Part shown: positions 9,053 through 37,916 of the stretch, in pieces
Layout: every line of letters begins with the position of its first letter
Position numbering within the stretch: the first letter of the stretch is position 1
Translations under genes and position numbers: made by a program
The notes under the pieces: generated by a model
The model's database searches: none
What the model saw: only the letters and a program-made list of their open reading frames with translations
What the model was told of the DNA's origin: nothing
NCBI RefSeq assembly: GCF_036345915.1
Contig: NZ_CP107785.1
Location: forward strand, 2,108,001 to 2,172,000
Source: Nocardia sp. NBC_00565
GTDB taxonomy: Bacteria; Actinomycetota; Actinomycetes; Mycobacteriales; Mycobacteriaceae
Reading direction: 5' to 3'
DNA: 64,000 bases

Positions 9053-9099
9053 GCGAAAACAGCCGGGAAAGCGTCAGCAGCGAGCAGGTGCTCTCGTGA
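9049..9099 (+). CDS. Coupled mini-ORF, 16 codons, between NRPS and exporter
   Basis: A GTG start overlaps the NRPS stop (GTGA), and the stop of this frame overlaps the GTG of the next frame in the same way. The peptide begins M-S-E-N and ends in EQVLS. No function is recognisable. The frame may serve only to pass ribosomes from the NRPS toward the exporter genes. It begins with GTGAGCGAA, the same bases that open the repeat unit at 35.5 kb. Whether a peptide accumulates cannot be told from sequence. Confidence 0.4.
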   Translation: MSENSRESVSSEQVLS

Positions 9100-9326
9100 G
9101 AGAGCGTATCGAGCAATCCGTGTACACAGCGCCCGTCAGCGGAGCGGAAAGCAGGTGCCGTCGAGGTGGATTCGCCTCGGGGCAGCGCCAGCGAAGCGAG
9201 GGGACCGCACCGGTGCGGACACCGGAGCCGAGGGCTAGAGGGAGAGACGTGAGCGAATGTGAGCGAACAGTAGGCGCGGTGCGCTCGGACGCGTCGGGCC
9301 CCAGTGCCGACGAGGTGTACTCGTGA
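9096..9326 (+). CDS. Coupled mini-ORF, 76 codons, upstream of DrrA-type ATPase
   Basis: The GTG start overlaps the preceding mini-ORF stop, and the TGA overlaps the GTG of the ABC ATPase at 9323. The product is Arg- and Ser-rich with no recognisable domain. An internal in-frame GTG at 9249, preceded by a GAGGGAGAGA ribosome-binding site, would give a 25-residue peptide starting VSECERTVG, close in size and start to the 27-residue mini-ORFs at 35.4-35.6 kb. The whole 9049-9326 interval therefore reads as a degenerate MIRU-like spacer rather than an ordinary protein gene. Confidence 0.35.
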   Translation: MRERIEQSVYTAPVSGAESRCRRGGFASGQRQRSEGTAPVRTPEPRARGRDVSECERTVGAVRSDASGPSADEVYS

Positions 9327-34587: not shown

Positions 34588-35409
34588 TCAACGTGGTGCG
34601 GTGATGCTGCCGGTGGCGGTCTGTCGGCCGGTGGCGTCGCGCACGGCCGTGGTGGTCGCTTCGTCGTCCGCGTCGGTGGCGACGATCATGCCTTGGTGGT
34701 CGAACAGCGGCGATTGCAGCCGGTAGTCGAAGACCTGGTCGCCGGTGTGCCCGAGCGCGCGGGCGGCCTCGGCCATCGCGAGCGCCTGCAGCGGCCCGTG
34801 CACCAGCAGGCCGGGATAGCCTTCGACCTCGCGGGCGTAGTCGCGGTCGTAGTGGATACGGTGGCCGTTGTAGGTGAGGGCGGAGAAGCGGAACAGCAGG
34901 GTCGGGGATACGTCGATGCGCCATTCGCCCGGCGCGAGCGGCACCTCGGCTGGATCGGCCGCTGGTTCGGATCGGGGCGATGTTGTCGATACCGCGTCCC
35001 GGTAGACGATGTCCTGTCGTTCGTCGACCACAATGCTGTCGCCCTGCAGGATCTGGTGACCGACGGTGACGAAGGTCAGTTTTCCGGACCTCCCCGACTT
35101 CTCCTGGACCGAAACGACTTTCGTGCGTCGGGTGGCGATTTCCCCTAGCACGAGGTTGCCGCGGTTGCGTACCCGCCCGCCCGCCCACATCCGGCGACGG
35201 CCGGGTCCGGGTGGTTCCGGAACCGTATTGCGGATCGGATGCCCGTCGGGGCCGAGGTCGGCTTGGGCGGGCCGATCCAGCAGATAGATCCAGTGCCACA
35301 GCAGCGGCAGTCCGGCCGCTGCGTCGGGCATCGGTACCCCGAGCAGCCCACTGAGCGCTTCGGCGGGGCCAGCGGTCAGCAGTTCGGTGCGTTCGACGAC
35401 GTCGCTCAT
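34588..35409 (-). CDS. FAS1-like dehydratase / mesaconyl-CoA hydratase-type (MaoC fold)
   Basis: The 273-residue protein has an N-terminal FAS1-like dehydratase domain and a C-terminal hot-dog half with the hydratase-2 pattern LTYNGHRIHYDRDYA followed by GLLVHGPLQALAMAE. It resembles Meh-type C4/C5 enoyl-CoA hydratases. With the CoA-transferase and acyl-CoA dehydrogenase upstream it would hydrate an unsaturated dicarboxylyl-CoA. Its ATG overlaps the stop of the second repeat mini-ORF (ATGA). Confidence 0.85.
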   Translation of the reverse strand: MSDVVERTELLTAGPAEALSGLLGVPMPDAAAGLPLLWHWIYLLDRPAQADLGPDGHPIRNTVPEPPGPGRRRMWAGGRVRNRGNLVLGEIATRRTKVVSVQEKSGRSGKLTFVTVGHQILQGDSIVVDERQDIVYRDAVSTTSPRSEPAADPAEVPLAPGEWRIDVSPTLLFRFSALTYNGHRIHYDRDYAREVEGYPGLLVHGPLQALAMAEAARALGHTGDQVFDYRLQSPLFDHQGMIVATDADDEATTTAVRDATGRQTATGSITAPR

Positions 35410-35489
35410 GCCCGCGCCTCGCTGTCGCTCGGCTCCGGCATGACCGACAGGTCGGCTGTGTTGGTAGTTCGCTCACTGCGTTCGCTCAT
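35406..35489 (-). CDS. Repeat mini-ORF, 27 codons (copy next to hydratase)
   Basis: It starts at ATG overlapping the stop of the preceding mini-ORF and stops by ATGA overlap with the hydratase start. The peptide starts MSERSERTTNTADLS and ends SDSEARA. It is hydrophilic, with no domain or membrane segment. It differs from its partner at two residues. A coupling role is more likely than a stable product. Confidence 0.5.
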   Translation of the reverse strand: MSERSERTTNTADLSVMPEPSDSEARA

Positions 35490-35569
35490 GCCCGCGCCTC
35501 GCTGTCGCTCGGCTCCGGCATGACCGACGGGTCGGCTGTGTTGGTAGTTCGCTCAGTGCGTTCGCTCAC
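35486..35569 (-). CDS. Repeat mini-ORF, 27 codons (copy next to CoA-transferase)
   Basis: A GTG start overlaps the stop of the CoA-transferase (GTGA), and the stop overlaps the ATG of the second mini-ORF. The peptide starts MSERTERTTNTADPS and ends SDSEARA. A GCGAGG sequence near its end sits where a ribosome-binding site for the next frame is expected. Possibly translated only to keep ribosomes on the message. Confidence 0.5.
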   Translation of the reverse strand: MSERTERTTNTADPSVMPEPSDSEARA

Positions 35570-36723
35570 GCGGATGCCTCCTTGGACTGGTGCTCGAATT
35601 CGGCCCGGATGGCGGCGGTGTGCGCGCCGAGCGCGGGTACGGGTCCCATGGCGGGTGCCCAGCCGGCGACCTCGACCGGTGGAAGCAGTGCCCGCATGGT
35701 TCCGCCGGGTGTCGGTACCGGTCGCCAGCGGTCGCGTGCGGCGAGCTGCGGATGGTGGGTGAACTCCTCGGGGGTGCGCATTCGGGCGTTGGCGATGCCG
35801 GCCTCGTCGAGCAGCACGATCACCTGATCGGCGTCGAGGTCGGCGAACGCCTGCTCGAGCAGTTCGGCGAGTGCGGTGTCGTTGGCGACGCGATCGGTGT
35901 TGGTTGCGAAGCGCGGATCGGTGATCAGATCCGGCCGCCGCAACACCTCTCGGCACAGGGCCGACCATTCGCGTTCGTTCTGCACGCCCAGGAATACGGT
36001 CGCGTCGGCGGTGCGGTAAGGACCGTAGGGCGAGATCGATGGGTGCCGTGCGCCGGTCCGGCGCGGCGGTTCGTGGCTGTACATGGAGAAGTAGGCGGGC
36101 TGGCTCATCCATTCGCCGAGTGCGTCGATCATCGCCACGTGCAGCGCCGCGCCGGTTCCGGTGCGCGCCCGATCGTAGAGCGCGGCCAGGATACCGCTGT
36201 AGGCGTACATGCCGGTGGCCACATCGGCGATCGAAAACCCGGCCTTGGCAGGGGCTTCGGGTGTGCCAGTGGTTTCGAGCAGACCGGTCTCGCACTGTAC
36301 GAGCAGGTCGTAGGCCTTCTTCGTGTGATAGGGGCCGTCCGGTCCATAGCCGGATACCGAGCAGTGGATCAGCTCCGGACGGTTCGCGCGCAGGGTGTCG
36401 GCGTCGAGACCGAGCCGCTCGACCGCGCCGGGGACCAGATTCTGCACGATAACGTCGGCGCGGTCGATCATGGCGTCGAGCAGCCGCCGGTCCGCGGGTT
36501 CCTTGATGTCGAGTTCGACGCTTTCCTTGCCGCGGTTGAGCCAGACGAAGTAGCTGGATTCGCCGTGCACGGTCTGGTCGTAGTGGCGGGCGAAATCGCC
36601 GACGCCGGGGCGCTCGATCTTGATGACGCGGGCGCCGAGATCGGCGAGCTGGCGGGTGGCCAGCGGTGCGGCCACGGCCTGTTCGAGCGCGAGGACGGTA
36701 ATGTCTTCCAGTGGGCGGCGCAT
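35566..36723 (-). CDS. Class III CoA-transferase (CaiB/BaiF family)
   Basis: The 385-residue protein begins MRRPLEDITVLALEQAVAAPLATRQLADLGARVIKIERPG (in parts), the class III N-terminus. The catalytic Asp lies in FSIADVATGMYA. It moves CoA between a donor such as succinyl-CoA and a carboxylic acid. I chose the ATG at 36723 (GGAAGG upstream, family N-terminus); a GTG at 36765 overlapping the upstream stop is the alternative. Partners imply a dicarboxylate substrate (itaconate/mesaconate-like), by inference. Confidence 0.9.
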   Translation of the reverse strand: MRRPLEDITVLALEQAVAAPLATRQLADLGARVIKIERPGVGDFARHYDQTVHGESSYFVWLNRGKESVELDIKEPADRRLLDAMIDRADVIVQNLVPGAVERLGLDADTLRANRPELIHCSVSGYGPDGPYHTKKAYDLLVQCETGLLETTGTPEAPAKAGFSIADVATGMYAYSGILAALYDRARTGTGAALHVAMIDALGEWMSQPAYFSMYSHEPPRRTGARHPSISPYGPYRTADATVFLGVQNEREWSALCREVLRRPDLITDPRFATNTDRVANDTALAELLEQAFADLDADQVIVLLDEAGIANARMRTPEEFTHHPQLAARDRWRPVPTPGGTMRALLPPVEVAGWAPAMGPVPALGAHTAAIRAEFEHQSKEASA

Positions 36724-36761
36724 CCGGTGCTGCCTTCCGTGAGAGTTGTTGTCGGACAACG

Positions 36762-37916
36762 TCACTCGATGCGATTACGGCTGATCAGTTGACGGGCGAT
36801 GACGTTGCGCTGGATCTCGTTGGTGCCCTCGCCGACGATCATCAGCGGCGCGTCCCGGAAATACCGTTCGACGTCGAACTCCGTGGAATATCCGTACCCA
36901 CCGTGGATGCGTACGGCGTCGAGCGCGATCTGCATTGCGGTTTCGGAGGCGAACAGTTTCGCCATGCCCGCCTCCATATCGGCGCGTTCACCCGAGTCGT
37001 AGCGGCGCGCCGCGTACCGGACGAGCTGTCGCGCGGCGGTCAGCTTGGTCGCCATATCCGCCAGATAGTTGCCGATCGACTGGTGCTGCCAGATCTGTTT
37101 GCCGAAGCTCTCGCGCTGCTGTGCGTAGCGCAGCGAATCCTCGAGCGCCGCCTGTCCGACGCCCAAGGCGCGACACGCCACCTGGATCCGGCCGATCTCG
37201 AGACCGCGCATCATCTGTGCGAAGCCCGCGCCCTCGACCCCGCCGAGTACCGCCGAGGCAGGGACGCGCAGGTCGTCGAAGGTCAGCTCGCAACTCTCCA
37301 CGCCCTTGTAGCCGAGCTTGGGCAGATCACGCGAGACGATGAAGCCGGGCCCCTTCTCTACCAGCAGGATGCTGATACCGCGATGTGCGGGCTCCGCGGC
37401 GGGATCGGTCTTGCACAGCAGTGCGATCAGATCGGAATAGCGGGCGTTGCTGATCCAGGTCTTGGAGCCGTTGACGATGTACTCCGCGCCGTCGAGGCGC
37501 GCGGTGGTCCGCATCGCCTGCAGATCCGAGCCGCCGCCGGGTTCGGTCAGCGCCATCGTTGCCCGGATCGCGCCGGTGGCCATCTTCGGCAGATAGCGAT
37601 CCTGCTGTTCGCGAGTTCCGTAGTCCAGCAGCAGTTTCGAGACCACGGTGTGGCCGCCCATCGCGCCGGCCAGACTCATCCAGCCCCGCGCGAGCTCTTC
37701 GGTGACCGCCGCATAACACGGCGCGGATACCCGCGCCTCGCCCCACGGCTCCGGGATCGCCAGTCCGAAGATGCCCAACTGCTTCATCTGGTCGATCAGC
37801 TTTTCCGGATAGGTATTGGTGTGGTCGAGCTCCTGTGCGACCGGCTTGACCTCCCGGTTCACGAAATCGCGGACGACGGCGACGATCGCGGTCTCCTCTT
37901 CGTCGAGCTCGTCCAT
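36762..37916 (-). CDS. Acyl-CoA dehydrogenase
   Basis: The 384-residue FAD enzyme shows ALTEPGGGSDLQAMRTTA, the ACAD FAD motif, and the C-terminal RDAPLMIVGEGTNEIQRNVIAR with the glutamate base in the VGEGTNE region. The ATG at 37916 is preceded by GAGAGG; an upstream in-frame start would add 19 unconserved residues. First gene of the operon with the CoA-transferase and hydratase, divergent from LysR. A short- or branched-chain substrate is likely. Confidence 0.92.
   Translation of the reverse strand: MDELDEEETAIVAVVRDFVNREVKPVAQELDHTNTYPEKLIDQMKQLGIFGLAIPEPWGEARVSAPCYAAVTEELARGWMSLAGAMGGHTVVSKLLLDYGTREQQDRYLPKMATGAIRATMALTEPGGGSDLQAMRTTARLDGAEYIVNGSKTWISNARYSDLIALLCKTDPAAEPAHRGISILLVEKGPGFIVSRDLPKLGYKGVESCELTFDDLRVPASAVLGGVEGAGFAQMMRGLEIGRIQVACRALGVGQAALEDSLRYAQQRESFGKQIWQHQSIGNYLADMATKLTAARQLVRYAARRYDSGERADMEAGMAKLFASETAMQIALDAVRIHGGYGYSTEFDVERYFRDAPLMIVGEGTNEIQRNVIARQLISRNRIE

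Follow-up and report, generated by a model that had tools for sequence, protein, structure and literature searches.

A MIRU-like family of short, mobile-looking repeat cassettes on gene start codons in Nocardia and related actinobacteria

Introduction

MIRUs find use chiefly in the typing of a few mycobacteria; their founding paper is reportedly one by Supply et al. from 1997. To our knowledge, little is understood of their origin, spread and action. REP/REPIN sequences and IS200/IS605-type non-autonomous elements are short, dispersed and hairpin-forming as well, and their pairing is strand-specific. In the one short passage that a 2025 review devotes to them, MIRUs are portrayed as mobile, with start codons as their insertion sites and an ORF coupled to the gene at -4 nt (PMC12548453). 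Another article describes the MIRUs of the senX3-regX3 operon as limited to M. leprae and the M. tuberculosis complex and as able to drive senX3-independent expression of regX3 (PMC4213456).

Here we compare with these systems a repeat from Nocardia sp. NBC_00565, first noticed in a 64,000-nucleotide stretch of its chromosome (NZ_CP107785.1), termed the window in the following. Judged by its sequence, the repeat is a member of a larger family: roughly a hundred short cassettes of mobile appearance, located on the start codons of genes. No account of this repeat family was recognised among open-access papers.

Results

The repeat lies on the minus strand of the window between a gene for a class III CoA-transferase (35566..36765; PF02515, 371 bits) upstream and a gene for a FAS1-like dehydratase-region protein (34588..35409; PF13452, 27.4 bits at a cut-off of 22) downstream. 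The latter, referred to as hydratase, gave no match in an NCBIfam search; its best named matches stem from Nocardia vinacea (77% identity), Antrihabitans sp. (67%) and N. vaccinii (69%), with records from the own genome possibly left out. As stated in a preliminary description, two 80-bp copies are present between the two genes, occupying exactly 35569-35410 (unit 1, 35490..35569; unit 2, 35410..35489; both minus strand, by direct reading and models), and the limits given there, 35403..35570, are correct to within a few bases. The two mismatches reported between the copies exist as internal differences, to which the first base of the start codon (G/A) has to be added. Mini-ORF 1 (35486..35569, minus strand) begins with GTG (35569-35567), ends with TGA (35488-35486) and encodes the 27 residues VSERTERTTNTADPSVMPEPSDSEARA, while mini-ORF 2 (35406..35489, minus strand) begins with ATG, ends with TGA (35408-35406) and likewise encodes 27 residues, MSERSERTTNTADLSVMPEPSDSEARA. 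The proposed chain of GTGA, ATGA and ATGA overlaps joining both genes and the mini-ORFs is read directly from the letters, the stop codon of the CoA-transferase gene (TGA, 35568-35566, minus strand) overlapping the entry GTG of mini-ORF 1. A Shine-Dalgarno-like AAGGAGG is located 7 nt 5' of this GTG (35577..35583, minus strand), and GAGG is found 7 nt 5' of the hydratase ATG (35417..35420, minus strand; unit 1 counterpart at 35497-35500). Since the unit length of 80 equals 3n+2, the register is kept with every further copy, and the idea that added copies are self-linking thus holds at the window.

Two hairpins per unit can be drawn on the same strand. The entry hairpin of unit 2 (35471..35485, minus strand), GCGAAC-GCA-GTGAGC, was assigned from family statistics and the window letters and has a GNA loop and tandem G.A pairs; in unit 1 (35551-35565, minus strand) the innermost pair is broken, C standing opposite C. 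The exit hairpin of unit 1 spans 35486..35523 (minus strand) with outer arms 35523-35517 and 35492-35486, the latter holding ATGA. It is identical in its letters to that of unit 2 (35406..35443, minus strand; outer arms 35443-35437 and 35412-35406), in which the ATGA of the second arm is the start of the hydratase gene. The window exit has a folding energy of -23.7 kcal/mol. Taken whole, the two window units do not fold better than shuffled sequences (z 0.03 and -0.13), a search of 35200-35800 against Rfam 15 gave no family up to E = 1, and a terminator scan at the repeat locus found none.

A chance repeat is ruled out by searches of the own 9.71-Mb genome. BLASTN with the window region finds at least 41 places (best 40 of 105 first-look candidates scored), and covariance model R1, built from 40 aligned units, finds at least 109 matches at E <= 1e-3 (best 150 of 15,829 first-look candidates scored). 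The single occurrence in the genome that would have refuted the preliminary reading is thereby excluded, and the family is dispersed and multi-copy. Reading covered 81 sources (the window, L155 and 79 stretches taken by position), eight of the weaker R1 places being left out. They contain 103 copies by profile search, in 66 single, 17 double and one triple cluster (84 in total), and 86 of the 103 copies carry NTGA at both ends. The orientation of the clusters relative to replication, counted by chromosome tenths, follows no clean two-arm pattern. Elsewhere in the window, at 9097-9136 (plus strand), a partial match to the left half of the repeat, GTGAGAGAGCG... (E 3.9e-5), is apparently a decayed copy.

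The frame rule extends from the window to the family: 75 of the 86 two-ended units have a length of 3n+2 (39 of 77 bp, 22 of 80 bp, seven of 68 bp, five of 71 bp and one each of 65 and 83 bp), the remaining 11 measuring 72, 78, 79, 81 or 82 bp. Unit 1 at the mtrA-mtrB site of the own genome, with 81 bp, departs from the rule and the chain is broken there. In 73 of the 86 units the mini-ORF is open and linked at both ends. These open frames could be read as a conserved functional micropeptide, all the more as changes in the left block of the unit favour third codon positions (71, 53 and 128 at positions one, two and three). The right block, however, shows the reversed order (130, 106 and 54), and the synonymous fraction is 0.31 on the left and 0.18 on the right against 0.25 expected for either. 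Codon-level conservation is therefore not consistent between the blocks; a functional peptide is unsupported and we regard it as hardly credible. Common descent accounts in part for the shared unit lengths and, likewise in part, for the shared hairpins.

In 70 of 79 clusters the exit NTGA is the start of a coding-like ORF, defined by at least 60 codons and a GC3 of at least 0.65; among 3083 control sites within these loci the fraction is 0.40. At the other end, the entry TGA terminates such an ORF in 31 of 77 clusters (0.11 of control sites), and 27 clusters have coding-like ORFs on both sides (0.055 of control sites). A looser earlier count on 42 clusters pointed in the same direction. Because the exit starts an ORF in 70/79 clusters but a stop overlap at the entry occurs in only 31/77, the usual insertion target is a gene start, and the stop/start overlap in the window is a minority case, a point missing from the preliminary description. 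A Shine-Dalgarno-like word stands ahead of the exit start codon in 81 of 86 units. At the entry it was seen in 29 of 77 clusters, 17 of the 31 that have a stop overlap and 12 of the 46 that lack one; the frequency at control sites is 0.107 of 4183. Genes scoring above NCBIfam cut-offs at insertion sites are those for mtrA, mtrB, MetX, IolC and an RsrA-type anti-sigma factor. The partner of MetX is an O-acetylhomoserine sulfhydrylase (a fragment, below the NCBIfam cut-off), that of IolC an ABC ATPase and that of the anti-sigma factor an ECF-type sigma factor.

Empty counterparts of the window site exist in related genomes. In N. vinacea (L075) the CoA-transferase and hydratase genes overlap directly in ATGA, the repeat is absent and AAGGAG precedes the overlap at the same place as AAGGAGG in the window. 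N. vaccinii (L077) has a bare ATGA, G250 (L201) reads ...CGCTGGC-ATGA-GCGAGG and G272 (L202) has TTGA, both of the latter again without the repeat; a profile search of L201-L203, L075 and L077 returned no unit. Four further sites were searched in 14 genomes and 30 loci were read, further split matches (e.g. G285, G293, G317, ABC/iolC) being left out. A plain GTGA joins metY and metX in five of five usable loci of relatives. At the alpha-E/transglutaminase site five of six loci have a plain NTGA, and G317 carries a shortened unit of 47 bp, likewise 3n+2. Between mtrA and mtrB, where the own genome has two units, ten loci of relatives comprise a plain overlap in G293, one unit in G250, two in G285, a remnant in G317, two copies and part of a diverged repeat in G322, and other or unalignable spacers in the remaining five. 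Unit number at this site thus differs between species (0, 1 or 2), in line with the variable copy number predicted beforehand. The spacers at nine ABC transporter/iolC loci of relatives varied, and the profile finds no unit in them. The insert is flanked by TGA on both sides. Given the empty NTGA sites and the differing unit number at mtrA-mtrB, the repeats look, as far as sequences can tell, like insertions at NTGA.

The diverged tandem repeat in the mtrA-mtrB spacer of G322 (L296), GTGAGGGAGCTTGCGACCGAAC..., is located at the cassette's GTGA in two copies and a partial third; one stretch of it is matched by the profile (E 3e-4). It is possibly an independent subfamily at the cassette's mtrA-mtrB site.

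In the exit hairpin, one arm is formed by the seven bases 5' of a conserved GGAG.CGAG, the other by NTGA together with the three bases that end the unit. Pairing amounts to 0.90 in the 74 of 86 own units with this anchor and to 0.78 when arms are exchanged between copies (highest of 1000 exchanges 0.826). Alignment A3 was composed of 39 hand-picked segments, 16 from the own genome, 12 from the same genus, four mycobacterial and seven from three other families; besides the 16 own segments its sources were 21 of 51 exit rows and two mycobacterial segments read separately. In A3, 94.2% of the cells pair (87.0 in shuffles) and two-sided changes affect 32 cells (9.7 in shuffles), while structures slid by 1-3 columns reach a pairing of at most 46.9%. 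The first base of the start codon takes part in this: the 39 segments have U-A in 28 and C-G in 11 cases. An unselected recount took in every one of the 86 two-ended units of the own genome and of the 51 rows; 11 and 12 of them, respectively, are without the anchor and were not counted. It gave T-A 46, C-G 27 and T-G 2 for the 75 own units, and T-A 31, C-G 6, T-G 1 and A-A 1 for the 39 from other genomes. One arm of the hairpin thus consists of the unit end and the downstream start codon, whose first base covaries with its partner, a feature absent from the preliminary description. Mispairs consist of 29 G.U, three A.C and 24 others, the latter mostly A.G at the outermost pair; as G.U by far exceeds A.C, the strand that folds is the coding strand.

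Folding of 41-nt exit segments yields -18.8 kcal/mol versus -13.5 kcal/mol in dinucleotide shuffles, 78 of 79 distinct segments being more stable. The exit start codon is paired at 0.88 (0.48 in shuffles), and pairing of GAGG in the exit is no higher than in shuffles (0.50 versus 0.57). RNAalifold on alignment A2 recovered the exit hairpin in part. The entry hairpin has the consensus GCGAGC-GNA-GCGAGC with tandem G.A pairs, and 55 of 66 distinct entries have the GNA loop. Its pairs 5-19 (60/66) and 9-15 (62/66) exceed all 2000 shuffles, pair 10-14 (63/66) equals the highest shuffle and pair 6-18 (54/66) does not stand out, the highest shuffle reaching 56. For a middle hairpin the excess over mononucleotide shuffles is modest (4.17 versus 3.59; highest of 200, 3.90) and it is not relied on.

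Hairpins of this kind could also be single-stranded DNA signals for an IS200/IS605 or REP (HUH) transposase that reads its cleavage site by pairing; the mini-ORF would then merely make insertions tolerable and there would be no lock on the start codon. Such an origin would suit the invariable pairing on the coding strand (G.U 29, A.C 3), the TGA flanks on both sides of the insert and the GNA-loop entry hairpins, GNA loops being very stable in DNA. The distribution of the enzyme, on the other hand, speaks against it: PF01797 occurs in just 16 of 98 genus genomes, does not track copy number and is absent from many genomes with at least 40 copies (e.g. G246, G258, G281, G285, G317, G320), and the only Y1 gene close to a copy, in L155, forms part of a tnpA/tnpB pair of its own. 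A Y1 transposase as required partner is unsupported on these counts, a mobilising enzyme for the cassette was not found, and we consider the transposase-signal explanation unlikely. The pair in L155, from the own genome, is IS605-type tnpA/tnpB-like (1465-1881 and 252-1445; Y1_Tnp 147 bits). It lies upstream of a repeat copy at a distance of about 290 bp, and what is visible of its sequence differs from the repeat.

The units might furthermore act as promoters of the downstream gene, as in the M. tuberculosis senX3-regX3 spacer, whose MIRUs are credited with senX3-independent regX3 expression (PMC4213456). A scan for sigma-70-like promoters in 35300-35700 found no site, although such a scan is weak in a GC-rich genome and covers one promoter type. 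Promoter activity would also leave the 3n+2 rule and the start-codon pairing unexplained, and we hold it to be very improbable.

The preliminary description placed the family "in this genus", which is too narrow. Within the genus, 92 of 98 sampled genomes have matches, at least 1 to 53 each, and six have none among the best 48 candidates scored per genome. Across the order, R1 matches were obtained in 29 of 101 genomes, 12 of 45 sampled genera and six families; the six Mycobacterium genomes of this sample gave no R1 match. All seven loci read from three other families have an NTGA entry, a mini-ORF, a 3n+2 length and an exit hairpin. In six of them the mini-ORF is MSERSER-like. An ORF of 253 codons or more begins at the exit of six loci, L235 running into another unit instead. 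Relatives of 65 bp occur in four of 40 Mycobacterium genomes (genus inferred from PE genes). With R2, a model of the exit hairpin, six of 296 genomes were found across the phylum under strict filters and with the best 22 candidates each, two of the hits being weak (G405, G497), a yield that does not imply absence outside the order.

Several of these loci deserve mention on their own. In Mycobacterium, L054 (1501-1619) and L050 (about 897-1065) have tandem 65-bp relatives at ATGA, one of them followed by a shortened copy. G054 (5.4 Mb, 550 contigs), which belongs to another family, has 27 R1 matches of several lengths, an expansion beyond the own family. L233 and L237 (G028 and G084, two species of another family) carry a unit at what appears to be one and the same gene start, downstream MSDFETVAATEDQ..., and most differences between their exit arms, compared by eye, keep pairing.

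Among 20 mycobacterial senX3-regX3 regions, eight, several of them from near-identical species, have a bare overlap. MIRU units were seen in L061 (four of 53 bp), L072 (five and part of another), L057 (two, of 101 and 53 bp), L056 and L066 (one each). The family profile detects no MIRU unit in the 20 regions at E <= 1, its one weak match in L060 lying outside the senX3-regX3 spacer, nor does R2 match L056, L057, L061, L066 or L072 at E <= 1 (16 of the 20 regions given). A GAGCGNAGCGA core is common to MIRUs and the family. It occurs 14 times in 172,040 nt of mycobacterial regions, always in senX3-regX3 spacers; when one MIRU unit was dinucleotide-shuffled 20,000 times, 84 of the shuffles contained it. 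The motif was noticed after looking and is hence a lead.

Discussion

The cassettes are probably mobile translational relays, a MIRU-like variant in which the hairpin lock is the least certain part. A cassette would insert at NTGA, mostly at the start codon of a gene and in the window at the stop/start overlap of two operon genes. The host's start site would then open the mini-ORF inside the cassette, 27 residues long in the window, and at the [A/G]TGA of the cassette end, mini-ORF stop and gene start in one, the ribosome would be handed on. The 3n+2 length would keep this relay working at any copy number. Each unit has GAGG ahead of the exit start codon, and this codon lies in the 3' arm of the exit hairpin. 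A ribosome finishing the mini-ORF may open this hairpin, and the downstream gene would therefore be started mainly by coupled ribosomes. What the sequences show directly is dispersal, filled and empty sites, unit numbers that differ, the frame rule, covariation in the hairpin and placement at gene starts; mini-ORF translation, the effect of coupling and lock, active mobility and spread by transposition we infer from them. The strongest steps are insertion at NTGA, the frame rule and start-codon covariation; the weakest concern where the hairpin acts, in mRNA as opposed to transposing DNA, and whether the cassette is still moving. A folded coding strand could be single-stranded DNA during transposition as well as mRNA, and it counts against a relay that just 29 of 77 clusters have a Shine-Dalgarno-like word at their entry. 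The same applies to the exit GAGG, which is not paired more than in shuffles, to the 11 of 86 units outside the 3n+2 rule, to the unremarkable folding of the whole window units and to the Y1 transposases, which do not follow copy number.

In a wider and more tentative version, to which we give somewhat less than even chances, mobile cassettes throughout the order swap the start context of the host for their own coupled one, classic MIRUs being a diverged branch that shares the GNA-loop core. The element would supply the first base of the start codon, the Shine-Dalgarno-like word and the hairpin pairing that base, and each insertion would turn a free start into one dependent on translation of the cassette. 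With about a hundred matches in one genome and occurrence in most sampled species of the genus and in further families, the many independent insertions lend themselves to testing how start codons are chosen. They likewise allow a test of possible coupling between operon partners such as mtrA-mtrB, metY-metX and sigma factor/RsrA-type anti-sigma factor, and the cassette would serve as a ready-made genetic coupling part.

On paper, judging from its letters, the family works like MIRUs, yet the sequence searches do not place it among them. The MIRU-like architecture proposed at the outset is evident in dispersed units, NTGA insertion with empty counterparts and linked frames. Both kinds consist of short dispersed units, single or in tandem, and are found at start codons or NTGA, the family with 70 of 79 clusters on a gene start and with empty sites. 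Both have an internal ORF with a -4 nt link (in the family 73 of 86 linked frames, known from sequence alone), lengths of 3n+2 (53 and 101 bp for the MIRUs in L057 and L061), empty NTGA sites in related genomes (for MIRUs 8 of 20 regions) and, as a lead only, a GAGC-GNA-GCGA core. They differ in their unit ends, TGACCCGCGCC...GTGGCGCCG versus TGAGCGAGCG...GCGCAGGC, an exit hairpin of the family's shape was not recognised in MIRUs, and the family has other hosts and a wider spread. The notion of an independent or diverged family agrees with the failure of both profile and hairpin model R2 to find the senX3-regX3 MIRUs. With REP/REPIN and IS200/IS605-type elements the cassette shares shortness, hairpins, dispersal and strand-specific pairing, but it is placed at the starts of genes, together with a linked frame, and its copy number is not followed by any Y1 transposase. 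Finally, the stop/start overlap between units and genes is the same as in ATGA/GTGA translational coupling as treated in the 2025 review (PMC12548453), whereas the cassette is repeated and apparently moving, and brings its own exit start codon and hairpin.
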